NCBI RefSeq assembly: GCF_004959855.1 | Contig: NZ_SPNT01000010.1 | Span: 1-64,000, forward strand | Source of the DNA: Nitratireductor sp. XY-223 | Lineage (GTDB): Bacteria; Pseudomonadota; Alphaproteobacteria; Rhizobiales; Rhizobiaceae | DNA: 64,000 nt | Direction: 5' to 3' | Part shown: positions 36,930 to 54,676 of the stretch, one piece after another | Position numbering within the stretch: position 1 is the first letter of the stretch | Layout of the letters: the number at the start of each line of letters is the position of its first letter | Notes under the pieces: model-generated | The model's input: the letters and a program-made list of their open reading frames with translations, nothing else | Told to the model about the DNA's origin: nothing | Databases searched by the model: none | Translations under genes and position numbers: made by a program

Positions 36930-36931
36930 CC

Positions 36932-38032: not shown

Positions 38033-38056
38033 CCCGTTAGCGGCAGGAGCTTGCAC

Positions 38057-39472
38057 ATGACCAACCAGCGTGAACTGATCGACCTCAGCGCCTGCCGCAT
38101 GGTGGAACTCCTCGACGCCGGCACCATTTCCGCGGCCGATGCGCTGGACGCTCTCGAAAGCCGCATTGCCGAGGTCGACCCGCTGGTCAACGCGCTGCCG
38201 ACACTGTGTTTCGAGCGCGCCCGCGACGCGGCGCGGCGGCTGCAGGACCTGCCCGTCGATGAACGCGGTTTGCTGCGCGGCCTTCCGGTGCCGATCAAGG
38301 ACCTCACCCAGGTCGCCGGTGTGCGCACCACATCCGGCTCCCTCCTGTTCGAGGATCACGTATCGGAAACGACCGGGCTGCCCGCCCGTGTCCTCGAAAG
38401 GAACGGCGCGGTCGTCTACGCGAAATCCAATACGCCGGAATTCGGCACCGGCGGGCACACGCGCAACAAGGTCTTCGGCATCACCCGCAATCCGCGCGAC
38501 CGGTCGCGCTCCGCCGGCGGGTCTTCCGGCGGCGCCGCCGCCGCGCTGGCGACCGGCATGGCCTGGATCGCCCACGGCTCCGATATGGCCGGTTCGCTGC
38601 GAACGCCGGCCAGCTTTTGCGGTGTTGCCAGCCTGCGCCCTTCGCCCGGACTGATCGCGGGAGACCAACCGAGACTGCCGTTCCAGGTCCTCGGCCAGGA
38701 AGGGCCGATGGCGCGCAACGTCGAGGACGTTGCCCTGATGACCGACGCCATGAGCGGTCTTTCGTTCGAAGCCGGGCTGACGAAACCCGCGCCGGAATCC
38801 TCGTTTCTGGACGCGGCACGCACGCCGAAAAGACCGCCGCGCATTGCCGTCAGCACGGATCTCGGCGTGACCGAGGTCGCGGCCGAGGTCCGCGATACGT
38901 TCAATGCCGCCATGGAGACACTGGCGGGTGCGGGCCTTGCACTCGAAGACGGCCATCCGGACTTTTCCGACGCTGTAGAGGCGTTCACCGTGCAGCGCGC
39001 GCTGATATACGCCGTCAAGCTCGGCGACGCGCTCGCTGATGCGCGCGGTCTTTTCAACCCCGAGGTCGTCTGGAATATCGAAAAGGGTCTCGACGCCGAC
39101 GGACCGTCCATCCGCAGCGCCATTGCGGCGCAGGGCCGGCTGTTTCAGAAGGCCGTGCAGTTCATGCAGGAATACGACCTGTTGATCTGCCCGGCCACGG
39201 TCATGCAGCCCTTCCCCGCGGACGAAACCTATCCGGGATCGTCCGCCGGGACCCCCGTGAGCGACTACTTTGACTGGCTGAAAATCGTCTATGTGGTGTC
39301 CGCCGCGACGCTTCCGGTCGTCACCGTTCCCTGCGGCTTCACCGAGGGCGGGCTACCGCTCGCGATTCAGCTCATCGGCCGGCCGCACGGCGAACACGAG
39401 CTGTTCCGTTTTGCCAGGTACATCGAGGATATCCTCGGCTGGGACGCAGCACCGATAGACCCCGTCGAATAG
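38057..39472 (+). CDS. Amidase (amidase signature family)
   Basis: The 471-residue protein has the Ser-cisSer-Lys triad of the amidase signature family: K81 in PVPIKD, S156 in RSAGGSSGGAAAALATGM, and nucleophile S180 in GSDMAGSLRTPASFCG. It hydrolyses a carboxylic amide; the substrate is not evident. The ATG at 38057 has AGGAG about 7 bases before it. It is 24 bases after the DUF1513 gene; a functional link is not obvious. Confidence 0.88.
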   Translation: MTNQRELIDLSACRMVELLDAGTISAADALDALESRIAEVDPLVNALPTLCFERARDAARRLQDLPVDERGLLRGLPVPIKDLTQVAGVRTTSGSLLFEDHVSETTGLPARVLERNGAVVYAKSNTPEFGTGGHTRNKVFGITRNPRDRSRSAGGSSGGAAAALATGMAWIAHGSDMAGSLRTPASFCGVASLRPSPGLIAGDQPRLPFQVLGQEGPMARNVEDVALMTDAMSGLSFEAGLTKPAPESSFLDAARTPKRPPRIAVSTDLGVTEVAAEVRDTFNAAMETLAGAGLALEDGHPDFSDAVEAFTVQRALIYAVKLGDALADARGLFNPEVVWNIEKGLDADGPSIRSAIAAQGRLFQKAVQFMQEYDLLICPATVMQPFPADETYPGSSAGTPVSDYFDWLKIVYVVSAATLPVVTVPCGFTEGGLPLAIQLIGRPHGEHELFRFARYIEDILGWDAAPIDPVE

Positions 39473-39503
39473 GGCAATTCCTTAACGCGCACACGCCGAT
39501 ACG

Positions 39504-39518
39504 GGTTAATCCTTAACC
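39504..39518. promoter_or_regulatory. Inverted repeat GGTTAA-TCC-TTAACC upstream of the M15-like lipoprotein gene
   Basis: A perfect 6-bp inverted repeat with a 3-base centre lies about 75 bases before the ATG at 39593. It includes TTAACCAT, which in alphaproteobacteria matches a half site of the cell-cycle regulator CtrA. The full CtrA pattern (TTAA-N7-TTAA) is not present. The downstream genes act on the cell wall, so cell-cycle control is plausible but unproved. Confidence 0.3.
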
Positions 39519-39592
39519 ATATCCTTCATGACAATTTTAAGGGTTCGCCTGCATGCTCACAACCAGTTCAGTATGTTCCTCGGTGCTGCGTG

Positions 39593-39994
39593 ATGCGCAA
39601 GACAGTCTTTTCCATACTCATCGTGGCCATGGCCGGCCTGCCGCTGTCCGGCTGCGCCAGTTTCTTCGGCATCGGCTCCTACTCGTCGAAGGTGAGCTAC
39701 AACGACACCAAATGGTGCGTGCCGCGCAAGCTCAAGCGCGTGCTCGGACGCGTCTCGCGCAAATACGGCACCGTCACCGTCCACTCGACCAAGCGCTGGT
39801 GGTTCGAGAACTGGCGCAAGGGCGGCGCCCGCAACTCGTACCACCTGAACTGCCAGGCGGTTGACTTTACCGTGCGCGGCGATCCGGCTTCCGTCCTTGC
39901 CTATCTGCGCTCCCAGCGCGAGGTCGGCGGCTACAGCTACTACGCCCGCACCGGCCACTATCACATCGACACCGGCCCGCGGCGGACCTGGTAG
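39593..39994 (+). CDS. M15-like (DUF882/YcbK type) peptidoglycan-related lipoprotein
   Basis: This 133-residue protein has a lipoprotein signal with lipobox LSGC (cysteine 21). The rest matches the compact D,D-peptidase M15/DUF882 fold, with the metal-binding pattern SYHLNCQAVDF (H and D) and the C-terminal GHYHIDTGPRRTW. It probably acts on peptidoglycan in the periplasm, anchored to a membrane. The start is ATG 39593 or GTG 39590. A cell-wall L,D-transpeptidase gene and an OmpA-domain lipoprotein gene follow on the same strand. Confidence 0.8.
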   Translation: MRKTVFSILIVAMAGLPLSGCASFFGIGSYSSKVSYNDTKWCVPRKLKRVLGRVSRKYGTVTVHSTKRWWFENWRKGGARNSYHLNCQAVDFTVRGDPASVLAYLRSQREVGGYSYYARTGHYHIDTGPRRTW

Positions 39995-40117
39995 GTCTGG
40001 TTTTGCCCGGCGGTTGACGCAAAACGCCTTTTACGCATTTAATAGCCTCCATGTGACGAACGGCCGCACCGGGCGGAGATGCGGCGTGCCGGCAATGACC
40101 GGCGCAGGGAGGATCAA

Positions 40118-40756
40118 ATGGAAAGGCGCAGCCTTTTAAAAGGCGCCCTGGCGGCAGCAGCCGGCTTGAGCGTACCCTTTGTCTGGACCAGCAGTGTCCA
40201 GGCCCAGTCGTCGAAATACTTCAAGGGCGCGACGAAGGACGGCGAGTACACCTACCCGAACACCAATTTCAAGTCGATCGACCCGCGCTGGCACCGCCAG
40301 ATGGTCAAGTACTTCTCCGACGAGCCGGAAGGCACGGTCGTTGTCGATACGCGCAACCACTATCTCTACTGGATCTGGGAAAACAACACCGCGATGCGCT
40401 ACGGCGTCGGCGTCGGGCGCGAGGGCTTCCAGTGGTTCGGGCGCGCCAACATTGCGCGCAAGGCCCGCTGGCCGCGCTGGGTTCCGCCGGAGGCAATGAA
40501 GCAGCGCCAGCCCGACCTGCCCGACTCCATGGATGGCGGCCCGAGGAACCCGCTGGGCGCGCGGGCGCTTTATCTGCACGGCAAGGGCGGCGACACAGGC
40601 TATCGCCTGCACGGCACGGCCGAGCCCTGGTCCATCGGATCCGATGTCTCGTCCGGCTGCATTCGCATGTTCAACGAGGACATCATCGACCTTTACCGGC
40701 GCGCGCCGATCGGCACCGCCGTTCTCGTTCTGGAGCACATCTCCGACAGGGCATGA
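40118..40756 (+). CDS. L,D-transpeptidase (YkuD/ErfK family)
   Basis: The enzyme makes 3-3 cross-links in peptidoglycan or anchors proteins to it. It has a Tat-like leader (MERRSLLKGALAAAAG), the YkuD domain with H165 in the HGTAEPWSIG motif, and the catalytic cysteine C181 in SSGCIRM. I chose the ATG at 40118 because AGGGAGGA lies about 6 bases upstream; the frame is open from 40079 but without a signal start there. The length is 212 residues, normal for the alphaproteobacterial group. Confidence 0.92.
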   Translation: MERRSLLKGALAAAAGLSVPFVWTSSVQAQSSKYFKGATKDGEYTYPNTNFKSIDPRWHRQMVKYFSDEPEGTVVVDTRNHYLYWIWENNTAMRYGVGVGREGFQWFGRANIARKARWPRWVPPEAMKQRQPDLPDSMDGGPRNPLGARALYLHGKGGDTGYRLHGTAEPWSIGSDVSSGCIRMFNEDIIDLYRRAPIGTAVLVLEHISDRA

Positions 40757-40804
40757 TTTGAAAAATGCGCGCGACGGGGAGCGCGCAACACGGGGGAAAT
40801 GAGT

Positions 40805-41353
40805 ATGAAGAGTATTCTCCATCTGGTGGCGGTCATCGCGCTGCTTTTATCCGGCGTGGCGCTGTCCGGCTGCAATGCGACGCGCGCGGCGCTGGGCGAT
40901 CCCAATTCCGGGCAGACGGACGACGCCGCCGTCGGCTTTGCCGACATCAGCACCGGCAGCGAGGAAAACTTCATCATGACCGCCGGACGGCGGGTCTATT
41001 TCACCTCCGGTTCGGCCGAGCTTGACGATGTGGCGCGCGAGACGCTCGACCTTCAGGCGGCCTGGCTGACGCAGCACCGAAGGTGGCTCGTCAAGCTGCA
41101 GGGCTTCGCCGACGATCCGGGTTCCGGCGCGGCAAATGTCAAACTGTCGGACCGGCGGGCCAAGGCCGTGATGGACTACCTTGCATCCAAGGGCGTCAGC
41201 CCGCAGCGCATGTGGGCCAAGGGCTACGGCAAGGAACGCCTGGTCCGCAACTGCCCGGACATTTCCTGCAAGGCACAGAACCGGCGTGTCGTCGTCAATC
41301 TGCGCGAGGAATTCGACGCCGCGGCGCCGCAATACAGGGGCAACCAGAGCTAA
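40805..41353 (+). CDS. OmpA-domain lipoprotein (Pal-like)
   Basis: The protein has a lipoprotein signal ending at LSGC (cysteine 23) and a C-terminal OmpA domain that binds peptidoglycan (VYFTSGSAELDDVARETLDLQAAWL, LQGFADDPGSGAANVKLSDRRAKAVMDYL, QNRRVVVNL). It should tether the outer membrane to the cell wall. Two ATGs are close together (40799 and 40805); the GGGGG motif is better spaced for the second, giving 182 residues. It is the last of three cell-envelope genes in a row. Confidence 0.87.
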   Translation: MKSILHLVAVIALLLSGVALSGCNATRAALGDPNSGQTDDAAVGFADISTGSEENFIMTAGRRVYFTSGSAELDDVARETLDLQAAWLTQHRRWLVKLQGFADDPGSGAANVKLSDRRAKAVMDYLASKGVSPQRMWAKGYGKERLVRNCPDISCKAQNRRVVVNLREEFDAAAPQYRGNQS

Positions 41354-41372
41354 ACGCGATCGGTCCGGGGCG

Positions 41373-41627
41373 TCAGGCGTTTTTCGTAACGTAACCGATG
41401 ATCAGATTGATCGTGCCGAAATTCTCGATGGTCAAATCATCGTCGGGAATCGAAATCCGGTAGGTCTGTTCCAGCCACATGATCAGTTCCATCGTGGCGG
41501 CGGAATCAAGGATATCCAGCTGCGGGATGAAGGCGTCGTCGCCGAGACCGTCCGCCTCGTTGCCGATTGCCTCCGCAAGCGCGACTATTTTGTCGCGGAT
41601 TTGCTGTCGTGCCGTATCCGGGTCCAT
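41373..41627 (-). CDS. Acyl carrier protein
   Basis: This 84-residue protein has the phosphopantetheine site S42 in the ILDSAATMELI segment, matching the D-S-x-x-x-x-E-L rule. The usual downstream helix (FGTINLIIGYV) is present. It is the last gene of an operon with a 2-oxoacid dehydrogenase E2 and fused E1 and a methyltransferase gene, and is 14 bases from E2. It is divergent in sequence from the fatty-acid AcpP, so it is probably a dedicated carrier for an acyl group made by E1 and E2. No phosphopantetheinyl transferase gene is nearby. Confidence 0.88.
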   Translation of the reverse strand: MDPDTARQQIRDKIVALAEAIGNEADGLGDDAFIPQLDILDSAATMELIMWLEQTYRISIPDDDLTIENFGTINLIIGYVTKNA

Positions 41628-41641
41628 GGATTCCCCTAAAG

Positions 41642-42760
41642 CTATTCTTTAGCAATTGCGTTTTCGTTAGGCGACGTCAGGTGATTGAGCGCCTGGAACG
41701 CGGCGGCGCCGTCAAGCACCCGGTGATCGTAGGTCGCGCCGAGGATCGACCGGCCGTCCCGGGCCGCGCTGTGGGCGACCATCAGCGAAACAAAGGGCGG
41801 CAGGATCGGCATGTGCCGGAGCACCGGCCAGCGCGCCATGCTCGAAATGGCGACCGTGGCGCCGCTCATTTCGGCGGGCTGCAGTTTGCCGCGCATGGCC
41901 GAGCGGTGCAGCCGGGCAAACGCATCAACGAATTCCCTGCCATCCATGCCGTCGGCCTCGTGGACTACGGGCAGGAAGAGCTTGCCGCCGATATGGACGG
42001 TGAAACCGAGATTGACGCAGTCATAGACGTATTTCCGGCCGTTATGGACCGTGGTGTTGAGGTCCGGGTTGTCCGCTGCATGACGGACGAGCTGGTAGGC
42101 CATGAGCGGCACCAGCGGACTGCTCAGAAGGCCGTGCGTGTCGCGGAAATTCTGGGCGAATGCCTGCCAGTCCGCCTCGTCATAGTCCGCCTCAAGATAG
42201 GTGGCGGCTGCGTCATTTGCGTGCCACGAAACCGAATTGAGCATCGCCGCCTCATAGGCACTGAATTCGACGCTCTTTCCGTCGGCATCCGGCGCGCCGG
42301 TCTGCGCGACCGCAGCCTTTGCCGGTTCGGCGTTTGGCGCGTTTGCGGCGATGAAGGCCTCGACATCCGAGACCTTCATGCGCGCGCCCGAGACGGGAAT
42401 GTCCCCGGCGGACATACCGTGCTCTTTCATCAATGCCAGGGCACCCGCCGTCGGCCGGTCGCTCGCGGACAGGGCCGCCGCGTCCTGCTTCGCCGGTTGC
42501 TCCTCCGGCACCGCCTCGTCGGGCGTCGCGCCGATCCACATCAGCACCGCGCCGACATCGAGCATCTCGCCCTCGGCGCCCGACGCCTCGAGAACAAAGC
42601 CGTCCGCCTCGGCCTCGACGACCACGGTCGCCTTCTCGGACTCGATCTCCGCCACCGCCTGTCCGGATGTCACCGCCTCTCCCGGCGAAACCAGGACGGC
42701 GATAAGCCTGACCTCATCGTCATTGTTGTTGATGCGCGGCACGAAAACGGGTTGGGGCAT
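41642..42760 (-). CDS. 2-oxoacid dehydrogenase E2 (dihydrolipoyl acyltransferase)
   Basis: The 372-residue E2 has a lipoyl domain at 1-80 with the modified lysine K43 in ESEKATVVVEA, a weak E1/E3-binding domain near 100-135 (TAGALALMKEHGMSAGDIPVSGARMKVSDVEAFI), an Ala/Pro-rich linker, and the catalytic domain with H346 and D350 in YDHRVLDGAAA. It would take an acyl group made by E1 and transfer it to CoA or, given the adjacent gene, to a carrier protein. It is small, with only one lipoyl domain. It is seven bases from the E1 gene. Confidence 0.88.
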   Translation of the reverse strand: MPQPVFVPRINNNDDEVRLIAVLVSPGEAVTSGQAVAEIESEKATVVVEAEADGFVLEASGAEGEMLDVGAVLMWIGATPDEAVPEEQPAKQDAAALSASDRPTAGALALMKEHGMSAGDIPVSGARMKVSDVEAFIAANAPNAEPAKAAVAQTGAPDADGKSVEFSAYEAAMLNSVSWHANDAAATYLEADYDEADWQAFAQNFRDTHGLLSSPLVPLMAYQLVRHAADNPDLNTTVHNGRKYVYDCVNLGFTVHIGGKLFLPVVHEADGMDGREFVDAFARLHRSAMRGKLQPAEMSGATVAISSMARWPVLRHMPILPPFVSLMVAHSAARDGRSILGATYDHRVLDGAAAFQALNHLTSPNENAIAKE

Positions 42761-42767
42761 GTCTGGC

Positions 42768-44762
42768 TCAGAACAACTCGAGGATTTCGGCGATCAGCCG
42801 GTCGCGGCCCGGCAGAACCTGCTCTTCCAGCGAACGGGCCGACGGGATCGGTACGGAAGGTGCGCCGACCCGCCGCAATAGCCCGACATAGCCGCTTTCG
42901 GCAAGGGTCGCGGCGATCTCGGCGCCGACCCCGAACTCGGTCGGCGATTCCTCGGCGATGATGATGCGTGATCGGCCGGCCAGCGCATCCGATAGTGTTT
43001 GGCGCGGCAACGGCGCGATCAGCGACGGAAGCACGATCTCGACCGCGATCTCCTCCTCACGCTCCAGTTCCTCGGCCACCTCTTCGACGAGCGGCGCCAT
43101 GCCGCCATAGGCGACGATCGTGACGTCCGGCTCGGCCCTGTCGTTGTGCAACGTCGGAAAGAGCTGCGCCGCTGGGTCGGCCGCGTTGGCTGGCAGGACC
43201 GTGTATCCGCCCGGCTCGTTCGGCCGGCTGTAGAGCAGCTTGTGTTCGAAAAAGACCGTCGGGTGCCTCCAGTCGTGCACCGCATTTTCCAGAAGGCGAC
43301 CCATATCGTGGCGGTGGCTGCCATAGACCACGGTCAGGCCGGGGACCGATGCGCAAAGGCTCTCCGGCGTCTGGCTGTGCGTGGCGCCGTATCCGCGCCC
43401 GCCGCCGCAGGCGGCGCGGATCACCAGCGGTATCGCGACCTCCTCGAAGAGCGGCGGGAACTTGACCGCGTGGTTGTAGATCTGGTCCATGCCGAGGCTG
43501 AGGAAATCGGCGAACATGATCTCCACGACCGGCAGCCGGCCCGCCATGGCAAGGCCGATCCCGGATCCGACGACGCCGGCCTCGCTGATCGGCGTCGACA
43601 GGACACGGTCCGGATATTCGCTTGTCATGCGTTCCGTGACCTTGAACGCTCCGCCATAGGGATCGTGCAGGTCCTCCCCGAGAACGATTGCTTCGGGACA
43701 CGCCTCGAGGATCGCGTGAAGCGCGGCATTGAGCGCCTGGCGCACCTTGCCGCCATAGCGTTCGTCTCCGGCGGGCACCGGCGCATTGTGTCCGAACGGA
43801 TGGCGCGGCACGCTGTCGAAACGTGCCGGCGGCGACTGCATCGCACGCTCGGTCGCCGCCTTCAGGAACGCGGCATTGCGTTCCTCGATCGCCCGGCGGT
43901 CGGATGCCGGCAAACACTCGCCGAGCCGCATCAGTGGATCGCGGGCACGGATCGCATCCATCTCGTCGTCGGCGCGCAGATCGTCTCCCTTGCTGTGCGG
44001 GCCGAGCCGCATGGTGTCGATGACCAGGAAACCCGGCGAGCCGCTTTTCCGGACAGCGCCCACCACCTCTTCGGCCCGTTCGAAAAAGTCCGGCGCATCG
44101 TCGCTGAGCCGCCATGTCGGCATGCCGAAAGCCTCGCCCCGGGCGGTCAGCGATCCGGCCGTGGTGCCGGCCGTCGGTGTGGTCTGGGCGATACCGTTGT
44201 TTTCAACCACAAACAGGATCGGAACGTCCCACACGGCCGCGAGGTTGAGCGATTCGTAGACAAGCCCCTGCCCCAGGGTTCCGTCGCCGATGATCGCCAC
44301 GACGATGCCGCCCTTGCCATCCAGCTTGCGGGCCAGCGCATGGCCGACTGCAATCGCCGTCATGCCGCCCTGGACGCCACTGCTGTGGAACCCCCGGTAC
44401 GCAAGATGCTGGCTGCCGCCCCGGCCGCCGCATACGCCTGCCTCGCGTCCCATGACTTCCGCAAGGAGCCCCTCGAAATCGCCGCTATAGGTCAGGAAAT
44501 GACCGTGGTTGCGATGGTTGGAGAACACCGCGTCATTGTCGTGGTCCAGCGCCCTAACGATGCCCATCTGGCAAAGTTCCTGCCCGAGGCAGGTGTGGGT
44601 GGTGCCGGAAAGCTGGCCCTTGCTGAAGAGATCGAGCAGTGTTTCCTCGGCCCCGCGGATCAGGTGGCCGAACCCGTAGAGAATCGCGGGATCGAGCGGA
44701 AGCGCCGGTTTCGTCCCCCCGTCAAGGGCGAGCCCGGCGACGGGCTTCGGTTCAGACGCCAT
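42768..44762 (-). CDS. Fused E1 alpha-beta 2-oxoacid dehydrogenase (thiamine diphosphate-dependent)
   Basis: In this 664-residue protein residues 20-330 are E1 alpha, with thiamine diphosphate motif GDG...NN (GDGTLGQG at 159-166 to VVENN at 185-189) and the GRGGSQH segment. Residues of about 345-664 are E1 beta (EAIVLGEDLHDPYGG, ISEAGVVGSGIGLAMAGRLPVVEIMFADF, and RAACGGGRGYGATHSQ). In most pyruvate and branched-chain complexes these are two genes. It would decarboxylate a 2-oxo acid and pass the acyl group to E2. No dihydrolipoamide dehydrogenase (E3) gene is in the cluster, so one from elsewhere in the genome must complete the cycle. It overlaps the upstream methyltransferase gene by 11 bases. 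Confidence 0.9.
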   Translation of the reverse strand: MASEPKPVAGLALDGGTKPALPLDPAILYGFGHLIRGAEETLLDLFSKGQLSGTTHTCLGQELCQMGIVRALDHDNDAVFSNHRNHGHFLTYSGDFEGLLAEVMGREAGVCGGRGGSQHLAYRGFHSSGVQGGMTAIAVGHALARKLDGKGGIVVAIIGDGTLGQGLVYESLNLAAVWDVPILFVVENNGIAQTTPTAGTTAGSLTARGEAFGMPTWRLSDDAPDFFERAEEVVGAVRKSGSPGFLVIDTMRLGPHSKGDDLRADDEMDAIRARDPLMRLGECLPASDRRAIEERNAAFLKAATERAMQSPPARFDSVPRHPFGHNAPVPAGDERYGGKVRQALNAALHAILEACPEAIVLGEDLHDPYGGAFKVTERMTSEYPDRVLSTPISEAGVVGSGIGLAMAGRLPVVEIMFADFLSLGMDQIYNHAVKFPPLFEEVAIPLVIRAACGGGRGYGATHSQTPESLCASVPGLTVVYGSHRHDMGRLLENAVHDWRHPTVFFEHKLLYSRPNEPGGYTVLPANAADPAAQLFPTLHNDRAEPDVTIVAYGGMAPLVEEVAEELEREEEIAVEIVLPSLIAPLPRQTLSDALAGRSRIIIAEESPTEFGVGAEIAATLAESGYVGLLRRVGAPSVPIPSARSLEEQVLPGRDRLIAEILELF

Positions 44763-45690
44763 GTCCGACCACCATGGCGGTGACTTCGGGCGGGTTTTCG
44801 TCGTCGGCCCTGCTCGGATGCCGGACCGTCAGGTGCGCATGCACGTCTAGCCCGCCCTCTTCGACCAGCCGGAGCAGTTCGTCCTCGCTTCGGAACAGGA
44901 AGATATGGTCCGGCTGTGGCGCGTTGATCGCGCCGGTGAGGAACGCCAGCCCGCCCGGCTGCAGGCTCTCCTTGATGCGCCCAACCAGCGCCTTCGGATC
45001 CGGCACGTGTTCAAGCAGTTCCCCGCACACGATGCGGCTTGCCTGCGGCAGCGACGGCACGGCAAGCACGTCCTCCAGCCGCGTTTCCACCCGCTCGCCC
45101 GCGCCGCTGGCGCCGAGCACGGCCTCGCTGAACTGCAGGCTCTGCGGGCTGAGATCGATCAGCAGCGATGGGCTGTCCGCCCACCTGCCGAGCGCCTCGA
45201 CGCTGAGCAGGCCGTGGCCCGGCCCCCATTCCATGACGAGCCCCTGCGGATCGTGCGGCGGCGACAAAAACGCTTCCCGGTAGAATTTCAGCAGCCGGTA
45301 GTGATGCGGCCACAGGAAATAGGTGCAGTAGAGCCCGACGAGGTAATAACCCTCCATGACCTCGGGATTGCTGTAGAAATCGTCTTTAAGTGCCTGAAGT
45401 TCCTCAACACTTGCGGAGTACTGACCCGTCTGCTTGAAGGCCACCTCCTCGCGCAGGATGGTGCTTCCCAGGCGCTGGAAGCCGCGCACCGCCCAGGTCG
45501 GAAAGTCCTTGTCCGGGAACGCCCTTTGCAAGAGGCCAAGGCTGTTTTCGAAGTCCGCCAGATAGGCATCGCCGTAGTCGGTGTGGAGGCCCTCCACAGC
45601 CGAGGCGGAGGAGCCGAAGAGCGTCTTGTTCAGGCCATCCTGGAGGGCGGACACCAGGGGAAACGAACCGGTCGTCAGGTCATGCTTCAT
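44752..45690 (-). CDS. Class I SAM-dependent methyltransferase
   Basis: The 312-residue protein has the SAM site at LVMEWGPGHGLLSVEALGRW, a strand-2 acid in LLIDLSPQSLQFSE, and a strand-4 segment IVCGELLEHVPDPKALVGRI. The first 130 residues are family-specific and contain no other known domain. It is the first gene of the operon with E1, E2 and the carrier protein and overlaps E1 by 11 bases, so it probably methylates an intermediate of that pathway. The acceptor is not known. Confidence 0.8.
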   Translation of the reverse strand: MKHDLTTGSFPLVSALQDGLNKTLFGSSASAVEGLHTDYGDAYLADFENSLGLLQRAFPDKDFPTWAVRGFQRLGSTILREEVAFKQTGQYSASVEELQALKDDFYSNPEVMEGYYLVGLYCTYFLWPHHYRLLKFYREAFLSPPHDPQGLVMEWGPGHGLLSVEALGRWADSPSLLIDLSPQSLQFSEAVLGASGAGERVETRLEDVLAVPSLPQASRIVCGELLEHVPDPKALVGRIKESLQPGGLAFLTGAINAPQPDHIFLFRSEDELLRLVEEGGLDVHAHLTVRHPSRADDENPPEVTAMVVGHGV

Positions 45691-45799
45691 ATTGCGCGCA
45701 ATCGATCCGTTCGCTGACTGGGATTGGTTGGACGGGATATCATTCCCCTTGTAAAACGCAAAATAGGCGAATTGGATTGAAATCGAAAGGCATAATCGG

Positions 45800-46858
45800 A
45801 TGGTCGAAATTCGAACCTATGACGGCGACGGAAGCGACTTTGCCGAATTGTGTCTGCGCATCCGCGGGCAGGAGGGCGAAGCGGAAAAATGGTCGCCGCT
45901 GTGGGACGCCGACTATCTGCGCGGCCAGATCGAGGCCCCTGCCGCCGATCGCGAGTTGATGGTCGCCGCCTATGACGGAGGGCGCCTGATCGGATCGTTC
46001 TTCGCGGTACCCTATAGGTTCAATCTGCGCGGTGAATCCCTTCGGGGAACCTATTCGACCTGCCTGATGATCGACCCCGCCTTTCGCGGCCTGACACCCT
46101 ACGTGATCGAGAAACTCCGACGCCGTCACCGAGACAACGGCTACGCCCTTTCGCTCGGCTTCGTCATGGGCGGGCCGGGTTCCGGCCCCCATCAGTGCTG
46201 GACCAGCTACGCCAGGGCCTATCCGAAGAACTGCCGCTTCGTTGCCGACGCCGGATACTGGATCAGGGCCTTCGATCCTTCCGTGCTCGACGCGGAAAGC
46301 CGCGCCGGGCAGGCCCGCGCCGACGAACAACTCGCCGGCCGGCTGTCAGGGGGCGAAGTTGACCCGCCGCCGGACACCGAACTCAGGGCCTGCCGTGAAG
46401 ACGATATCGATGCGTGCCTGGAACTGCTCAGGGCTCAGGCCGCCAGGGCGGACTGCTCGATGGACTGGGACCGCCAAAGCCTCGGCAGGCATCTGATCGG
46501 TTCCGCCAACACGGATGCGCTGGTCGCCGATCGCGACGGGTCGGCCATCGGCCTTGTCGCCATGCACCGGCTGCCCGTCTGGAACGAAAGGCCCGTCCAC
46601 GGCGTTGTCATCGACATGCTTGCCGCCGATGCCCGCGACGATCAGACCAGGCGGCTCCTCCTGAACGGCGCCTGCGCGAAAGCACGCGAGGCGGGTGCGC
46701 AGATCGCAACCGCCCTTCGCTCATCCATGTTCCGCGCACGCGTCATGATCCCGGCAGGTTTCCTGCCGGCCCCCGATCCGGGCCGGCTTGTGGTGCTGTT
46801 CGCGGACGAGACAATCGAGGCCTCGGCCGCCGACGATTTCGAGCTGATGTTGCGCTGA
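45800..46858 (+). CDS. Tandem GNAT acyltransferase
   Basis: The 352-residue protein appears to contain two GNAT-like halves. The first (about 1-150) has RELMVAAYDGGRLIGSFFAVPYRFN followed by TYSTCLMIDPAFRGLTPYVIEKLRRRH, the usual acyl-CoA binding helix region. The second (about 195-345) has ELRACREDDIDACLELL and GVVIDMLAADARDDQTRRLLLNGACAKAREAG. GNAT proteins move an acyl group to an amine. It faces away from the methyltransferase-E1-E2-ACP operon and converges with the aminotransferase. A role in acylating an amine made by that aminotransferase, with the donor from the carrier protein, is inferred. Confidence 0.72.
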   Translation: MVEIRTYDGDGSDFAELCLRIRGQEGEAEKWSPLWDADYLRGQIEAPAADRELMVAAYDGGRLIGSFFAVPYRFNLRGESLRGTYSTCLMIDPAFRGLTPYVIEKLRRRHRDNGYALSLGFVMGGPGSGPHQCWTSYARAYPKNCRFVADAGYWIRAFDPSVLDAESRAGQARADEQLAGRLSGGEVDPPPDTELRACREDDIDACLELLRAQAARADCSMDWDRQSLGRHLIGSANTDALVADRDGSAIGLVAMHRLPVWNERPVHGVVIDMLAADARDDQTRRLLLNGACAKAREAGAQIATALRSSMFRARVMIPAGFLPAPDPGRLVVLFADETIEASAADDFELMLR

Positions 46859-46864
46859 GCGGCG

Positions 46865-48226
46865 TCAAATCCAGTTTGGAACTCTTGAGAGGATGCGCTT
46901 GAGGCCCGCGAACGCCTCGTCGAAATGCGCGTCCTCGAGGATGAACGGCGGCAGCAGCAGGATCCGGCTGCCGGCGATATGCACCCATAGTCCGCGCGCG
47001 AAACAGGCCTTCGCCACCATGTCCATGGCCTCGGCGTCAAGCGGCTCGCGCCCGGTGCCGTCGCGCACCAGGTCGATGGCAAAAAGCATCCCGATGCCGC
47101 GGGCATTGTCGACGACCTGCAGTTCCTTCAGTTCCTGGAGCCGTTCGAGGAACGCCGCGCCCCGCGCCGCCGCATCCGCGATCAGGTTGTCCCGCGTTAA
47201 TATATCGATGGCCGCAAGGCCCGCCGCACAGGCCCCCGGGTGACCCGCATTGGTCGAGCCGTGGTTGAAGCGCATGTCATCCGTTTCGGCGAGGAAAGTA
47301 TCCCAGATCTCGTCGGTCGCGACCGCCGCCCCGAGCGGGAAATAGCCGCCGCTGATCGCCTTGCCGAGGCACATGACATCCGGATCGAGATTGAACCGCT
47401 CGGAGGCGAACAGTGTCCCGGTGCGGCCGAAACCGGTCGTCACCTCGTCGACCACCAGCTTGATGTCGTGGCGCTTGCAGGTCTCGCTGATGATGTCGAA
47501 ATAGGCTTGTCCGGGCACGATGGCACCGCCCATGCCCTGCACCGGCTCCATGATGAACATGGCGACCGTCTCGGGGCCTTCGGCGAGAATGGCCTTTTCA
47601 AGCTGCTCGGCGCAGGCGACCTCGAAGGCCTCCCGTTCGGCCTCGGTCTGGCTGTCACGGTTGAAGGGCTGCGCGATCTTGATGAATCCCTCCGGCATCG
47701 GGCCGAAGCCCTGCTGGTCGTCAGCGAACCCGGATGCCGCCAGCGCCCCGTAGGAAACGCCGTGATAGGCGTTTTCAAGCGAGATGACCTTGTATTTGCC
47801 CGATCCCTTGCGATGAAAATACTGCCGTACCATCTTGATGGCCGTTTCCACCGATTCCGAGCCGTTGGATGTCAGGAATACGCGATTGAGGCGGCCCGGC
47901 GCGATCTCGGCAACCTTGCGCGCAAGGTCGATGGCCGGCCGGTGCGCCGTCCGGAACAGCGCCGCGAAACTCAGCTCGTTGAGCTGCGTGTTGATGGCCT
48001 CGATAATGTCCTTCCGCCCGAGGCCCAGCGGCGCGTTCCAAAGGCACGAGGTCAGGTTGAGGTAGCGCTTGCCGTTCTGGTCGAAGAGATACGGTCCCTC
48101 GCCGCTTTCGACGACGATGTTCTGCGCACCGAGGATCTTCTGCATCTGGCTGAACGGATGCCACAGGTGGTAGTCCGCTCCGGCGTCAGGTTCCTGCCCG
48201 GCGATCTGCTGTTCGGATTGGCTCAT
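46865..48226 (-). CDS. Class III (PLP-dependent) aminotransferase
   Basis: The 453-residue protein is an omega-amino acid/class III transaminase, with D260 in VVDEVTTGFGRTG and the PLP-lysine K289 in CLGKAISGGYFPLGA. VFLTSNGSESVETAIKMVRQY also fits. The open frame is much longer (to 48691), but the ATG at 48226 overlaps the stop of the SDR gene by four bases (ATGA), so the two are coupled. It would replace a carbonyl by an amine, most simply the carbonyl made by the SDR. The substrate is unknown. Confidence 0.92.
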   Translation of the reverse strand: MSQSEQQIAGQEPDAGADYHLWHPFSQMQKILGAQNIVVESGEGPYLFDQNGKRYLNLTSCLWNAPLGLGRKDIIEAINTQLNELSFAALFRTAHRPAIDLARKVAEIAPGRLNRVFLTSNGSESVETAIKMVRQYFHRKGSGKYKVISLENAYHGVSYGALAASGFADDQQGFGPMPEGFIKIAQPFNRDSQTEAEREAFEVACAEQLEKAILAEGPETVAMFIMEPVQGMGGAIVPGQAYFDIISETCKRHDIKLVVDEVTTGFGRTGTLFASERFNLDPDVMCLGKAISGGYFPLGAAVATDEIWDTFLAETDDMRFNHGSTNAGHPGACAAGLAAIDILTRDNLIADAAARGAAFLERLQELKELQVVDNARGIGMLFAIDLVRDGTGREPLDAEAMDMVAKACFARGLWVHIAGSRILLLPPFILEDAHFDEAFAGLKRILSRVPNWI

Positions 48227-49008
48227 GACTGCTGTTTCTCCGATGAAACCATGGGAAGCGGAATGGTCTGGGTCCAGCCCAGCGGCAATGTGCTGCCGGT
48301 GATCCAACCGGCATCGCTGGATGCCAGAAACGCAACGGCATTGGCGATATCGTGACGCGACCCGGTGCCGAGCGGATGGCAGGCATTGACCTGCTCCCAG
48401 GCCTCCGGCGTGAAGTCTTTCGCGAAATCGTGCAGCATGGGCGTGTGAGCCAGCGCCGGCGCAATGCACACGGCGCGGATTTTCTTCGGCGCCACTTCCA
48501 GCGCCAGCGAGTTCGTCAGCGCAATCACCGCGGCCTTGCTGGCACCGTACGCCGCGTTGCCGGCACAGGCATTCTCGGCCAGCACCGATGCGACGTTGAT
48601 GATCACGCCGCCCGGCGACGTCATATGCGGCAACGCTTCGCGGGTGACCCGAACCGTACCCTTGACGTTGACGTCGAACGTGAACTCCCACTGCTCGTCG
48701 GTCAGGTCCTCGAACAGGCCGAAACAGCTGACCCCGGCACAGTTGACGACCGCGTCGATGCGGCCGAATTCGGAGGCGGTCTCGGCGACCATCTGTCTGA
48801 CGAAACCCAGGTCCGTTATGTCGCCCTCGTACCAGCGCACCGGCGCGCCGCGCCGCTCGAGCCGTCCCAGCAGACGCTTTGGCGCAACCCGGTCGGTAAG
48901 CACCAGCGTTGCGCCTTCCTCGGCGAACTTCTCGGCAATGGCGCCGCCGAATCCGCGGTCGTTGGCACCGGTCACAAGGACAATGGAATTCTCGAAACGT
49001 TGCGACAT
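48223..49008 (-). CDS. Short-chain dehydrogenase/reductase
   Basis: The 261-residue SDR has the nucleotide-binding region VTGANDRGFGGAIA, the NCAG segment at 89-92, and the active site S141, Y154 and K158 (YGASK). The glycine motif has one more residue than the usual TGxxxGxG form. It would oxidise or reduce an alcohol-carbonyl pair. The coupled aminotransferase suggests that it supplies the carbonyl that is aminated. The gene lies 183 bases from the end of the HlyD gene on the same strand. Confidence 0.88.
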   Translation of the reverse strand: MSQRFENSIVLVTGANDRGFGGAIAEKFAEEGATLVLTDRVAPKRLLGRLERRGAPVRWYEGDITDLGFVRQMVAETASEFGRIDAVVNCAGVSCFGLFEDLTDEQWEFTFDVNVKGTVRVTREALPHMTSPGGVIINVASVLAENACAGNAAYGASKAAVIALTNSLALEVAPKKIRAVCIAPALAHTPMLHDFAKDFTPEAWEQVNACHPLGTGSRHDIANAVAFLASSDAGWITGSTLPLGWTQTIPLPMVSSEKQQS

Positions 49009-49191
49009 GTTAGAACCGGCACCTCCACCACTTCATCGCTGCTGGGATCGCTCGACAAGGCGGCATAGTAGCGACGCGCAGGCCCGGCGGAAACGCTTTT
49101 TTTAAAGAGACGACGAATTGCCTATTCCTGATGTGAAAGGCCTGTTTTCGAAGCGGTAATCAGGTCGACAGACGGGTCCGAGACCGTATCT

Positions 49192-50535
49192 TCACGACTC
49201 CCGGAAAGCGCGCCTGATCTGGTCGGACAGGGGTTTCAAGGCGTAATTCAGCACCGAACGCCGGCGCGTCTGAATGAACACCTCGACGGGCATTCCGGCA
49301 ATGAGATCCAGCCCCTCCAGGGTCGCGAGTTCTTCCTCAGCCACGTCAACATACACGGTGTAGTAAGGCGCGCCGCCGCCTGGTTCGTGAAGAACGTCCG
49401 CGGACACCCGGGTCACCGTGCCGACAAGCTCCGGTGTCGTGCGCAGGTTGAAGGCCGAAAACCGGACCTGCGCCGATTGCCCCGCGAATACCTCGTCGAT
49501 GGAGCCGGGTTCTATGCGGGTCTCGATCTCGAACCGTTTGTCCTGCGGAACGATCTTCATCAACGTTTCGGCGGCGCCGACGACGCCGCCTATGGTGAAG
49601 ACATTCAGATCATGGACGATGCCCGACGCCGGCGCCGTGATCTCGACGCGCCGCATCCTTTCCTGCGTGGATTTCAGAAGCTGGGACACCTCGTCATATT
49701 CGCCCGCGGCCTGCCGCAGCGTGGCGAGCACCTCTTCCCGGAAGTCGTGGTCGATCTGCAGGATCTGCAGTTCCGTCTCGCTGATTGCGTTCTCCGTACG
49801 CGCGATGGCCGCTTCAAGCTCTCCGATCCGGCCGGTCAGCGTTTCGCGTTGCCGCTCCAGGTTCAGGACCCGCGATGCGGTCGCCAGTCCCTTTTCCCGC
49901 AACTGGCGGACCCCGGTCAGTTCCTGGTCGAGCGAGGCGATCTGCCTTCCGTTCGACCGGATGACAGTCAACGTTCCCTTCACCTGGTTCTCGAACTGCG
50001 CGATTTTCTCGCGAAGGCGCGACACCTGGCCATTGCGGGACTGGCGCCGCGCCTCGAACAACCGCTCTTGGCCGTGTCGCACGGCAGGATCGGATATGAT
50101 CCGGTTGATATCCAGCAGGTCATCCCGCCACCGGATGGCGTCAAGGCCGTCACGCTCCGCCTCCAGCCGCGCCAGCCGGGCGACCGCTTCTCGCAGCCGC
50201 GCCGCGTGGACCTTGAATTCCGCCCGCAACAGCGTGTCGTCGAGCCTGATCAGGGGTTCGCCCTGCTCAACCCGCTCCCCATCGGCAACACGGATCTCGG
50301 CGATCAACCCGCCATCGGCATGCTGGACATCCTTCGGCCGGCCGGCCACCGAGACCTTGCCCTGCGACACCACCGCGCCGGACAAGCGGGCAAAACTTGC
50401 CCAGCCGCCGCCGACGACGAACAGAAGGACCATCAAGGCGAGCCCGAGACGGATTGTCCTGCGCGCCGATGTCCGCACGCTTGGTCCATCGGGCGGAGCG
50501 GCCGGTTGTGGCTGTCGATCGATTGATAGCCTCAT
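49192..50535 (-). CDS. HlyD-family type I secretion periplasmic adaptor
   Basis: The adaptor of 447 residues has one transmembrane helix (LGLALMVLLFVVGGGWASFA, about 29-48), a lipoyl-like half domain (DGGLIAEIRVADGERVEQGEPLIRLDDT), long coiled coils (about 110-310) that reach toward an outer-membrane TolC-type channel, and a C-terminal beta barrel (MPVEVFIQTRRRSVLNYALKPLSDQIRRAFRE). The start at 50535 overlaps the stop of the exporter gene by four bases (ATGA). It works with the ABC exporter encoded upstream. No TolC gene is in the window. Confidence 0.92.
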   Translation of the reverse strand: MRLSIDRQPQPAAPPDGPSVRTSARRTIRLGLALMVLLFVVGGGWASFARLSGAVVSQGKVSVAGRPKDVQHADGGLIAEIRVADGERVEQGEPLIRLDDTLLRAEFKVHAARLREAVARLARLEAERDGLDAIRWRDDLLDINRIISDPAVRHGQERLFEARRQSRNGQVSRLREKIAQFENQVKGTLTVIRSNGRQIASLDQELTGVRQLREKGLATASRVLNLERQRETLTGRIGELEAAIARTENAISETELQILQIDHDFREEVLATLRQAAGEYDEVSQLLKSTQERMRRVEITAPASGIVHDLNVFTIGGVVGAAETLMKIVPQDKRFEIETRIEPGSIDEVFAGQSAQVRFSAFNLRTTPELVGTVTRVSADVLHEPGGGAPYYTVYVDVAEEELATLEGLDLIAGMPVEVFIQTRRRSVLNYALKPLSDQIRRAFRES

Positions 50536-52280
50536 CTGGAAGTCCTGTGCGATGCCAGCGCGATATTGCGGCCCGGAACGGCGCGGGTCAGCTTGCGCAG
50601 TACCTCGACCTTTTCGCCGAACTGGACCTGCTGACCGTTTTTCAGGAACAGGATCCTGTTGACCGCCGCGATGGCGCTTGGCCGGTGCGCCATGACGACG
50701 ACGCAGGACCCGCGTTGCCTGAGCACCTTTATCGCGTTGATCAACGCCGCCTCCCCGTCGGCGTCGAGGCTCGCATTCGGCTCGTCGAGCACCACCAGCC
50801 TGGGACAGCGCAATACGGCACGCGCCAGGGCGACGCGCTGGGCCTGCCCACCCGACAGGATCGATTTGCCCCTGGCTAGATCGGTGCTGTAGCCGTCGGG
50901 AAGCGTCAGGATCAGTTCGTGAACGCCTGCAAGCGTTGCAGCCTCGACAATCTGCGCATCCGTCACGGTCGGGTCGAAACGGGCAATGTTCTGCCGGATC
51001 GTAGCGGCCATAAGATCGACGGACTGGGGCAGGTAACCGACATGGCGTCCAAGGGCATCCCTGTCCCACTGCTCGAAGGTGCCGCCGTCCAGCCGGACTG
51101 TGCCGCGATCCGGCGCCCACAGGCCGATCAGCAGTCTGGCGAGGCTCGACTTGCCGGAACCGCTCGCGCCGATGACGCCGAGACCGTCGCCCGGTTGCAG
51201 CTCGAACTGAATGCCGTTGAGAATCGGCCGGCGGCGCCCCTGCCGGTCGGCCTCGGCAACTTTGACAACACCGTTCACCGTCAAACAGCCCTTGGGCGCC
51301 GGCAGGGCAAACGGAGTGAAGCCGGACGGCTGGCCCTCGAGCACCTGCAGAAGGCGCTTGTACGCCTGGCGCGACACGATCAGGTTTTTCCAGTTGGCGA
51401 CCGCCGCGTCGATCGGCGCAAGTGCCCGGCCGGCGAGGATCGAGGCAGCGATCATCGATCCGGCGGAAATTTCCTGGAAGATTGCGAGGCAGGCACCGAG
51501 CGCCAGGATGCCGGACTGGATGAACAACCGCATCGCCTTGGTGAACGACTGAGCAACTTCCGAGCGGCCGCCCGCTGTTTGGGCTTCAGCCAGTCCATCA
51601 TGGCGTATCAACTGCCAGTGCCTGCACACATCGGCAACCATGCCCATAGCCACGATCGCTTCGGCATCCCGCTTCGCCGCCTCGGAGAAGTTCGTGTCGC
51701 GAATATCCTCAGCCGCCGAGCGCGCAATGGGACCGCGTGTCATCCACTCATTGACCAGGGTCGCGGCAACGACGGCCAATGCCCCGACGGTGGCCAGGAG
51801 ACCCAGCCAGACATGCAGGAGATAGACGATGCCGAGATAGATCGGCACCCAGGGCAGGTCGAACAGGGCCGGCAGGCCGTTCGAGCACAGGAACCGCCTG
51901 ATCGCCGAGAGATCGCCGACCGGGCGCACCGGTTCCGCGCCTGTTCGGGTTCCGGACCCGATGAACGCCGCCTGTGCCGGTGTCATCAACTCTATGTCGA
52001 GGCGATATCCGGCGCGCGAAAGCACGCGGGCGCGGACGAAATCGAACATGCCCAGAAACGCATAGAGGACCGCGACCATCGCAAACAGGGCGACCAGTGT
52101 GGGAATGGAGCGGCTCACCAGGACACGATCGTAGACCTGCAGCATGAAGAGCGGTCCGGTGAGCATCAATACGTTAATGGCGAAGGAGAAGGCGCCGACA
52201 TACAGGAACGAGTCCCGCAGCGATCCGATCGCGCGGGACAGTGGATTCGTTGTAGTCGCCGGATTTTGAAGAACTGCCAA
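50532..52280 (-). CDS. Type I secretion ABC exporter (permease-ATPase, PrtD/PrsD type)
   Basis: The 582-residue exporter has an N-terminal membrane domain of about 300 residues and one ATPase domain: Walker A GASGSGKS (371-378), signature LSGGQ (475-479), Walker B with D499-E500 (LVVLDEPNASLD). The layout is the PrtD/HlyB form without a peptidase domain, which exports RTX proteins by their C-terminal signal. It lies downstream of the RTX heme peroxidase gene, its likely cargo, and upstream of the HlyD adaptor. Confidence 0.93.
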   Translation of the reverse strand: MAVLQNPATTTNPLSRAIGSLRDSFLYVGAFSFAINVLMLTGPLFMLQVYDRVLVSRSIPTLVALFAMVAVLYAFLGMFDFVRARVLSRAGYRLDIELMTPAQAAFIGSGTRTGAEPVRPVGDLSAIRRFLCSNGLPALFDLPWVPIYLGIVYLLHVWLGLLATVGALAVVAATLVNEWMTRGPIARSAAEDIRDTNFSEAAKRDAEAIVAMGMVADVCRHWQLIRHDGLAEAQTAGGRSEVAQSFTKAMRLFIQSGILALGACLAIFQEISAGSMIAASILAGRALAPIDAAVANWKNLIVSRQAYKRLLQVLEGQPSGFTPFALPAPKGCLTVNGVVKVAEADRQGRRRPILNGIQFELQPGDGLGVIGASGSGKSSLARLLIGLWAPDRGTVRLDGGTFEQWDRDALGRHVGYLPQSVDLMAATIRQNIARFDPTVTDAQIVEAATLAGVHELILTLPDGYSTDLARGKSILSGGQAQRVALARAVLRCPRLVVLDEPNASLDADGEAALINAIKVLRQRGSCVVVMAHRPSAIAAVNRILFLKNGQQVQFGEKVEVLRKLTRAVPGRNIALASHRTSR

Positions 52281-52317
52281 TGCTCACCCGTGATTGTCAA
52301 ATTTGCGGAATTCTATG

Positions 52318-52352
52318 ATCGGGCCCGCACGTTGTTCCTGCGCGGACCCGAT
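52318..52352 (-). other. Intercistronic hairpin between peroxidase and exporter genes
   Basis: ATCGGGcCCGC (52318-52328) and GCGGaCCCGAT (52342-52352) pair over 11 positions with one mismatch, around a 13-base loop. It lies 15 bases after the stop of the peroxidase gene and 37 bases before the exporter start. There is no T run, so it may stabilise the peroxidase end of the mRNA or partly stop transcription, giving more cargo than exporter. Function is inferred. Confidence 0.5.
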
Positions 52353-52367
52353 GGATGCCCTGATCAA

Positions 52368-54404: not shown

Positions 54405-54490
54405 CTTTTTTCTCCTCGAATTTGCTTTCGAATGGATTGGTTTGCGGGGTTCAGATGCGGATGGCCGGCTGAAACAAAGCTGAAGCCGAT

Positions 54491-54507
54491 CTTAAGGTTT
54501 CCTTAAG
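54491..54507. promoter_or_regulatory. PmrA/QseB-type response-regulator box (CTTAAG-N5-CTTAAG)
   Basis: CTTAAG (54491-54496), five bases GTTTC, then CTTAAG (54502-54507) fits the published PmrA-box pattern YTTAAK-N5-YTTAAK exactly, with an 11-base period. Since CTTAAG is its own reverse complement, the site reads on both strands. It lies 87-103 bases upstream of the peroxidase ATG. The response-regulator gene at 54677 belongs to the same PmrA/QseB group, which makes it the likely binder. Confidence 0.6.
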
Positions 54508-54676
54508 GTTCAATCAGAGGAGGAAGCACCTTCCCCGCATTGATCGGAAAGCGCGAAAAATTACGCATAATCAATAGGTTAAATGATCGCACGGCAAAAG
54601 CAGCGCGCCGGGGTGGCGCACCATGCAGGTGTCTCAAACCGATGCCCGCCCTTGGGCGTCATCCGTCAATCGCGCA

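Follow-up and report, generated by a model that had tools for sequence, protein, structure and literature searches.

A group of seven genes at positions 41373-49008 of the window (the whole stretch of 64,000 nucleotides analysed here, from contig NZ_SPNT01000010.1 of the marine bacterium Nitratireductor sp. XY-223) raises the question of what a pyruvate dehydrogenase (PDH)-like enzyme pair does in one operon with an acyl carrier protein (ACP), and which of the surrounding genes work with it. The initial annotation had named the seven gene types, and all of these open reading frames (ORFs) are present, supported by Pfam and conserved in Hoeflea poritis. It had further joined them into one pathway from a 2-oxo acid to an amide; the idea that an acyl-ACP is turned into an amide is partly supported, whereas there is no support for a single seven-gene pathway that starts from a 2-oxo acid. 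We propose, with about as much confidence as doubt, that five of the genes form an insert in which a repurposed PDH-like pair loads a short hydroxyacyl group onto the ACP, the group is O-methylated and a GNAT-type N-acyltransferase moves it to an amine.

A five-gene insert beside an older gene pair

The insert (41354-46864) lies between the convergent ends of an OmpA-like gene and a class III aminotransferase (AT) gene. Its reverse strand carries an operon for an S-adenosylmethionine methyltransferase (MT) with a helical N-terminal domain (44752-45690, 312 amino acids, Pfam methyltransferase domains), a fused E1 alpha/beta thiamine diphosphate (ThDP) enzyme (42768-44762, 664 amino acids; PF00676 E1_dh, PF02779 Transket_pyr and PF02780 Transketolase_C), an E2-like lipoyl acyltransferase (41642-42760, 372 amino acids; PF00364 lipoyl and PF00198 2-oxoacid_dh) and the ACP (41373-41627, 84 amino acids; PF00550, E=4.9e-6, over the cut-off), the serine of which lies in LDSAATMEL. 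The MT and E1 genes share 11 bp, and the spacings are 7 bp between E1 and E2 and 14 bp between E2 and ACP. The GNAT gene (45800-46858, 352 amino acids, Acetyltransf_9) is on the forward strand, divergent from MT, and the 109 bp between the two (45691-45799) are a probable shared promoter region, in which 99 of 109 aligned bases equal those of H. poritis (4476 of 5486 for the whole insert); a single weak sigma-70-like match at 45714-45743 is by itself no evidence of a promoter. Between the ends of the GNAT gene and AT lie 6 bp, and between those of the ACP gene and the OmpA-like gene 19 bp. Outside the insert, AT (46865-48235, 456 amino acids, PF00202) and a short-chain dehydrogenase/reductase (SDR) oxidoreductase (48223-49008, 261 amino acids, PF13561) are encoded on the reverse strand with a 13-bp overlap.

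All seven genes are found in H. poritis in the same order and with 76-94% amino-acid identity, for which reason chance clustering was rejected. The ACP is 90% identical to that of H. poritis and 43% identical to those of two Magnetococcales loci (L039 and L032), and its serine is aligned in all eight ACPs compared.

Among eight genomes of the genus, E2 and MT occur in two (those of the window and G007, which we take, from a matching contig, to be H. poritis E7-10), the SDR-AT pair in three (these two and G006) and the OmpA-like gene in all eight. In G006, AT and the OmpA-like gene stand tail-to-tail, 12 bp apart with nothing between them, and AT and SDR are adjacent, each 83% identical to the window protein; in the window and in H. 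poritis, ACP-E2-E1-MT and the divergent GNAT gene occupy exactly that gap. Because of this empty site, the five genes are one self-contained unit placed between two convergent gene ends, and the SDR-AT pair is an older neighbour that need not belong to it.

Tree position and motifs of E1 and E2

In a tree of 19 E1 sequences the window protein falls, with support of 100/100, into a clade of eight rows, apart from 11 others that include the PDH and branched-chain 2-oxoacid dehydrogenase (BKD) of its own genome. The remaining members are from H. poritis, two Magnetococcales, the renieramycin plasmid (RenH), a cassette of Streptomyces NBC_01136, a polyketide synthase (PKS) locus of S. cattleyicolor and a locus of Nonomuraea. 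The matching E2 clade holds 9 of 17 rows, with support of 96/98. The E1 tree was made without L039 (E1 cut) and L051 (no E1, E2 cut) and the E2 tree without L051; the Nonomuraea E1 in the tree is incomplete, and a Mycetohabitans region was not used. Judged by these trees, the window E1 and E2 differ from ordinary dehydrogenase components and do not group with the canonical rows; a simple PDH duplicate was rejected on the same tree position. The role of acyl-ACP maker that the initial annotation had given to E1, E2 and ACP is supported by this carrier-type clade and by the ACP match in 30 of 33 MT regions described below.

Because the plasmid matches of E2 in tblastn reach only 25-29% identity among the 40 of 98 records listed, E1 was taken as the plasmid query instead, and its top-ranked match was RenH (39.8%).

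Two residues of E1, Arg456 and Lys258, are present in 8/8 carrier rows and 0/11 others; 12 columns show that pattern, and these two were chosen from them afterwards. They are suggestive in that they would suit a phosphorylated donor. The initial annotation had the acyl group come from a 2-oxo acid, for which we find no support: E1 groups with RenH and E1s linked to nonribosomal peptide synthetases (NRPSs), and described systems of like composition are reported to act on a ketose phosphate. The window E2 has an N-terminal NNND signature, a lipoyl Lys43 and the sequence DHRVLDG, in which the DHRxxDG motif is present. Carrier-type E2s have N-x-N-D at the N terminus in seven of nine rows, N-V-N-E in L057 and S-S-N-D in RenI, and such a motif is absent from the eight other rows.

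A separate E1 alpha and beta pair with no annotated E2 adjoins a DegT aminotransferase on an Azospirillum ramasamyi plasmid (L082, 5971-9324), close to a haloacid dehalogenase (HAD) hydrolase and a sulfotransferase.

E1/E2 or FkbH near one methyltransferase family

The MT alignment was scanned against 84,980 species genomes, which gave 23 loci. When 48 genomes from a single Magnetococcales order were searched separately, 12 of them had MT, at 15 listed places, two of these already counted (L057 and L039) and 13 covered by 12 regions; with L114 and L123 set aside (same contigs as L052 and L051) and the two MT copies in L115 counted as one region, 10 new regions were left. Profile matches were accepted at E<=1e-4 for the 23 loci and at E<=1e-5 for the 10 further regions. 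Loci from which a profile was partly built match it by construction; these are L038, L039, L052 and L057 for E1/E2, L043, L049, L054, L056 and L058-L060 for FkbH, L040 and L042 for GNAT, and L039, L042, L043, L051 and L052 for ACP. Because near-copies (four Oxalobacteraceae and three Geodermatophilaceae loci) were kept in the counts, the effective number of MT regions is smaller.

E1/E2 and FkbH alternate near the same MT family: the combined 33 regions have E1/E2 in 6, FkbH in 22 and both in none, with an ACP match in 30 and an acyltransferase in 24. An ACP match accompanies MT in all of the 23 loci, where E1/E2 is found in five (L038, L039, L052, L057 and, as E2 only at a contig edge, L051), FkbH in 16, both in none and neither in two (L042, and L040, the contig of which ends early); their acyltransferases are GNATs in 16 cases (13 Rim-like, two of a 287-amino-acid kind and one tandem) and MBOATs in three, with neither in four. 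The 10 further regions have E1/E2 in one, FkbH in six, both in none and neither in three (L116, L122 and L124), an ACP match in seven (absent from L119, L121 and L124) and a GNAT or MBOAT in five. The initial annotation had placed the methyltransferase in the same module as E1, E2 and ACP and had made an acyltransferase their partner, and both placements are borne out, the latter as a frequent one (24/33).

FkbH, which lies up to about 5 kb from MT, exceeded the NCBIfam curated cut-off in 18/18 tested of the 22 regions (L045, L046, L047 and L050 were outside the test), and the Rim-like GNAT exceeded the Pfam cut-off in 3/3 tested of 13. When the ACPs of five MT loci were compared with Pfam, L051 and L052 were over the cut-off, L060 barely so (20.9 vs 20.8), whereas L058 and L059 fell below. 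In one genome, G545, an E1/E2-MT locus and an FkbH-MT locus lie on different contigs. By eye, no FkbH was seen among the window ORFs at 36000-55000, and the 20.9-kb H. poritis locus (L038) has no FkbH profile match.

The E1/E2-linked MTs stand in two places of the MT tree and make up one side of a branch in 0/200 bootstrap trees. Given this split, repeated exchange of the loader beside the MT family appears likely, but the starred branches of the tree force just a single change, and the tree contains several very long branches. The AlphaFold2 model of MT has a mean pLDDT (predicted local distance difference test) of 93.9. Its fold matches are generic class I methyltransferases, with TM-scores of about 0.4-0.6 among the 50 rows listed, and O- and C-methylation are not told apart by them.

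A conserved cluster of MT-GNAT-ACP-SDR-MBL-KASIII-SDR-FkbH-ACP-AMP ligase is seen in L043, L041 and relatives (Duganella, Modestobacter, Blastococcus and others), mostly with FdtA/DegT-aminotransferase genes, in Beta-, Alpha- and Gammaproteobacteria and Actinomycetota. It resembles a pathway, of an unusual kind, to an N-acyl amino sugar; parts of L043 were checked against Pfam. A polysaccharide deacetylase, read by eye beside the Magnetococcales loci, had no Pfam match and was not used.

The GNAT acyltransferase

The initial annotation had described a tandem GNAT. Pfam finds one GNAT domain (PF13527), barely over its cut-off (25.3 vs 25 bits), and this half of the description holds; the second domain, and with it a putative tandem architecture, is weakly documented. 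Eukaryotic N-myristoyltransferase is an N-acyltransferase built of two GNAT folds, and a profile built from four sequences, including two Deinococcus ones, matched N-myristoyltransferase chains at residues 35-131 (E=1.7e-6) and weakly at residues 148-260 (E=0.026). This profile similarity is below family level, the Pfam NMT family matching at E=0.051 and for a Deinococcus relative only; unlike N-myristoyltransferase, the GNAT would probably use acyl-ACP as its donor. A two-sequence AlphaFold2 model (mean pLDDT 44.8) was too poor for a structure search. Beyond the window's own genome, the GNAT was found in none of the 385 class genomes or 349 phylum genomes drawn.

Two relatives with 28% identity are encoded on Deinococcus plasmids, each after a class III aminotransferase gene in a cluster that contains a PKS; one plasmid has, between the two genes, a short ORF that also matches the aminotransferase. 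Because of this gene order, the product of the SDR-AT pair could be the acceptor of the GNAT. The two clusters (L029 and L030) show a PKS, a thioester reductase, the class III aminotransferase, the putative tandem GNAT, a radical SAM protein (annotated in L030 as coproporphyrinogen III oxidase-like), KASIII and an ACP.

Relation to described systems

In the quinocarcin (Qnc), naphthyridinomycin (Nap) and scleric acid (Scl) systems, as in our locus, E1-type ThDP parts, a lipoyl acyltransferase and a dedicated ACP are encoded together. According to the relevant sections of the scleric acid paper, SclQ1-4 are homologues of QncN, QncL and QncM, reported to produce a C2 glycolyl unit and attach it; deletion of sclQ1-4 left residual scleric acid, and production was restored by glycolic acid feeding; and QncL joins pyrimidine-binding and lipoyl/acyltransferase parts, SclQ2 and SclQ3 being separate (PMC6335953). 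The glycolyl role of the QncN/L/M type is stated again in a further source (PMC13307308), and DinS, DinT and DinU are described as homologues of NapD, NapC and NapB, which give a hydroxyethyl unit on an ACP (PMC7570522). QncN/L, NapB/D and SclQ are reported to draw their C2 unit from a ketose phosphate (PMC7570522, PMC6335953).

RenH and RenI, and the SclQ-like cassette of Streptomyces NBC_01136, belong to the same E1 and E2 clades as our locus; we infer that RenH and RenI make glycolyl-ACP. The primary study of the glycolyl unit, as cited in the later papers, is Peng et al. (PNAS, 2012). The NBC_01136 cassette, ACP-E1a-E1b-E2, is on a plasmid, has the same parts as those described for SclQ1-4 and lies near a PKS and a condensation-domain protein. 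Directly after it stands an FkbH-family protein without the central HAD stretch (L062, 11928-13472). Unlike the Qnc, Nap and Scl systems, our locus has no NRPS, its E1 alpha and beta are fused, and the loader is coupled to MT and the putative tandem GNAT.

Modules of FkbH, ACP and an O-methyltransferase likewise combine a short hydroxyacyl-ACP with an associated methyltransferase, and they share our MT family and an ACP, but the loader here is E1/E2, with no FkbH. For suomilide and varlaxin, loading of glycerate by FkbH followed by methylation to 2-O-methylglyceric acid has been proposed (PMC10143770), and glyceryl-ACP and methoxymalonyl-ACP have been described (PMC7489565). Campylobacter flagellin is reported to carry di-O-methylglyceric acid (PMC3958885), and the fkbH-domain gene cj1302 of Campylobacter has been named (PMC7099621). 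All these published descriptions serve as context for the locus and do not test it.

With PDH, BKD and acetoin dehydrogenase complexes the locus shares domain composition, ThDP and lipoyl chemistry and the DHRxxDG motif of E2; it differs in lying outside the canonical rows, in the NxND-like N-terminal motif of E2, in having ACP and MT in the operon and in lacking an E3. Presumably there is also a likeness to Campylobacter Cj1300-1302. In the openly licensed literature we found no described cluster that combines E1/E2/ACP with this MT and the putative tandem GNAT without an NRPS, and no description of FkbH and E1/E2 alternating near one MT family. The initial annotation, which knew of no described cluster of this kind, was right for the exact gene set as far as these searches went, whereas the E1/E2/ACP core has described relatives. 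The loader is thus of a described kind, that of the glycolyl-ACP systems, and its combination with MT and the putative tandem GNAT was not found in the literature searched.

Proposed route and alternatives

We suggest that E1 would take a short unit, probably a C2 hydroxyethyl unit, from a donor; a ketose phosphate or hydroxypyruvate is the most likely source, ahead of an ordinary 2-oxo acid. E2 would receive the unit on its lipoyl arm and pass the acyl group, probably glycolyl, to the dedicated ACP. MT would probably O-methylate the ACP-bound hydroxyacyl group, as has been proposed for FkbH systems with an O-methyltransferase, which in the glycolyl case would give methoxyacetyl-ACP. The GNAT would transfer the acyl group from the ACP to an amine, forming an amide; whether or not the neighbouring SDR-AT pair makes that amine, the step would be the same. 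Gene content, conservation, the empty site, the carrier-type clades and the alternation of E1/E2 with FkbH are observed, whereas donor, acyl identity, methylation site, acceptor and final product are inferred.

Several observations weigh against this proposal. The window E2, like that of H. poritis, keeps the Asp of DHRxxDG that is lost in seven of the nine carrier-type E2s, so that transfer to coenzyme A (CoA) could still take place. The label carrier was assigned from gene context, by eye in the cases of Nonomuraea and S. cattleyicolor. Some branches of the E2 tree are very long, and the kinship to Qnc, Nap and Scl is indirect, drawn through RenH/RenI and NBC_01136. The insert holds no NRPS or KASIII, and the adjoining ORFs include no NRPS either; the described systems deliver to an NRPS. 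Of the 33 MT regions, five have neither E1/E2 nor FkbH (L040 and L124 at contig ends), three have no ACP match and nine no acyltransferase match, and in both Magnetococcales E1/E2 loci compared the 287-amino-acid GNAT is under the Pfam cut-off (E=0.0023 and 0.0038). Because the NBC_01136 E1/E2 cassette is followed by the HAD-less FkbH-family protein, the loader and FkbH relatives can co-occur. MT could instead act on the acceptor or the final product, and the complete seven-gene set is known from two genomes only.

Among the alternatives, it is unlikely that all seven genes serve one pathway, in which a 2-oxo acid would become acyl-ACP, SDR and AT would make the amine, the GNAT would join the two and MT would methylate once. 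The genes do stand together in 2/2 genomes known with the insert, the GNAT relatives of Deinococcus come after a class III aminotransferase in clusters that also hold PKS genes, an ACP and a KASIII, and Duganella-type loci place an MT-GNAT-ACP block in one locus with a DegT-family sugar aminotransferase. However, identity to the GNATs of Deinococcus is only 28%, the aminotransferases beside those are comparable to AT at the level of class III, E1 lies outside the canonical clade, and relatives keep ACP-E2-E1 apart from SDR-AT: G006 has the pair without ACP-E2-E1-MT-GNAT, and Magnetococcales have E1/E2-ACP-MT without SDR-AT matches in the stretches seen. This separation largely refutes the conserved seven-gene pathway of the initial annotation. 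We consider it very unlikely that E1/E2 serves catabolism, as a hydroxyketone or 2-oxo acid dehydrogenase with CoA as its acceptor, and that ACP and GNAT are unrelated passengers; the full catalytic motif of E2 and the E1 alpha motif HRxHGH, which the window E1 has in common with acetoin-type E1s such as the Sinorhizobium row, would agree with it, but the tree position, the tight MT-E1-E2-ACP operon and the frequency of ACP beside MT do not, and the operon lacks an E3 gene, whereas the PDH and BKD clusters elsewhere in the genome each have a dihydrolipoyl dehydrogenase (E3) over the cut-off.

It is doubtful, if less so, that the module decorates a surface glycan, the GNAT acylating an amino sugar in a polysaccharide whose synthesis genes lie elsewhere in the genome. 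Relatives of the module lie near FdtA and a DegT aminotransferase (Pfam, L043), near MBOAT and, by eye, near nucleotide-sugar and lipopolysaccharide-precursor-like ORFs, and a glycosyltransferase/rhamnose-like region was read by eye at about 1-25 kb of the window. The insert, however, contains no sugar-nucleotide gene, that region is more than 15 kb away, and the tandem GNAT is unlike the GNATs of glycan-type loci.

The self-contained insert with its carrier-loading pair may be one instance of something wider, which we offer tentatively: one MT/ACP/acyltransferase chassis, spread over several classes, that is served by two unrelated loaders. FkbH would load glyceryl from 1,3-bisphosphoglycerate and carrier-type E1/E2 would load glycolyl from a ketose phosphate, both giving O-methylated hydroxyacyl groups. 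The Hoeflea E1/E2 version would be freed from NRPS and glycan assembly and drive an N-myristoyltransferase-like tandem GNAT, with a small amine as acceptor and methoxyacetyl-type amides as products. The locus suggests that PDH-like enzymes have been recruited as interchangeable carrier-protein loaders beyond a few described antibiotic clusters. In a simple five-gene system without assembly-line enzymes, donor, methylation and N-acyl transfer are separately testable in vitro, and the MT family that marks such loci offers a way to find glycans and amines with unusual acyl decorations.

Surroundings of the insert

Among the solved chains nearest to AT are amine and putrescine/polyamine transaminases, and all AT matches in plasmids are below 60% identity. 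In G006 the SDR gene is divergent from a transporter, the binding protein of which has PotF as its best match (E=6e-133, under the curated cut-off) and is followed by an ABC permease; H. poritis has a solute-binding protein of the same Pfam families at the position of the PotF-like gene. The window has instead, at 49192-54404, an HlyD-like protein, an ABC transporter protein and an animal-haem-peroxidase protein with RTX repeats. At the other end, positions 1-26000 have a G+C content of about 47-55% in 11 of 13 blocks, compared with about 62-66% at 28-52 kb, and contain glycosyltransferase-, sulfotransferase- and rhamnose-synthesis-like ORFs as read by eye.

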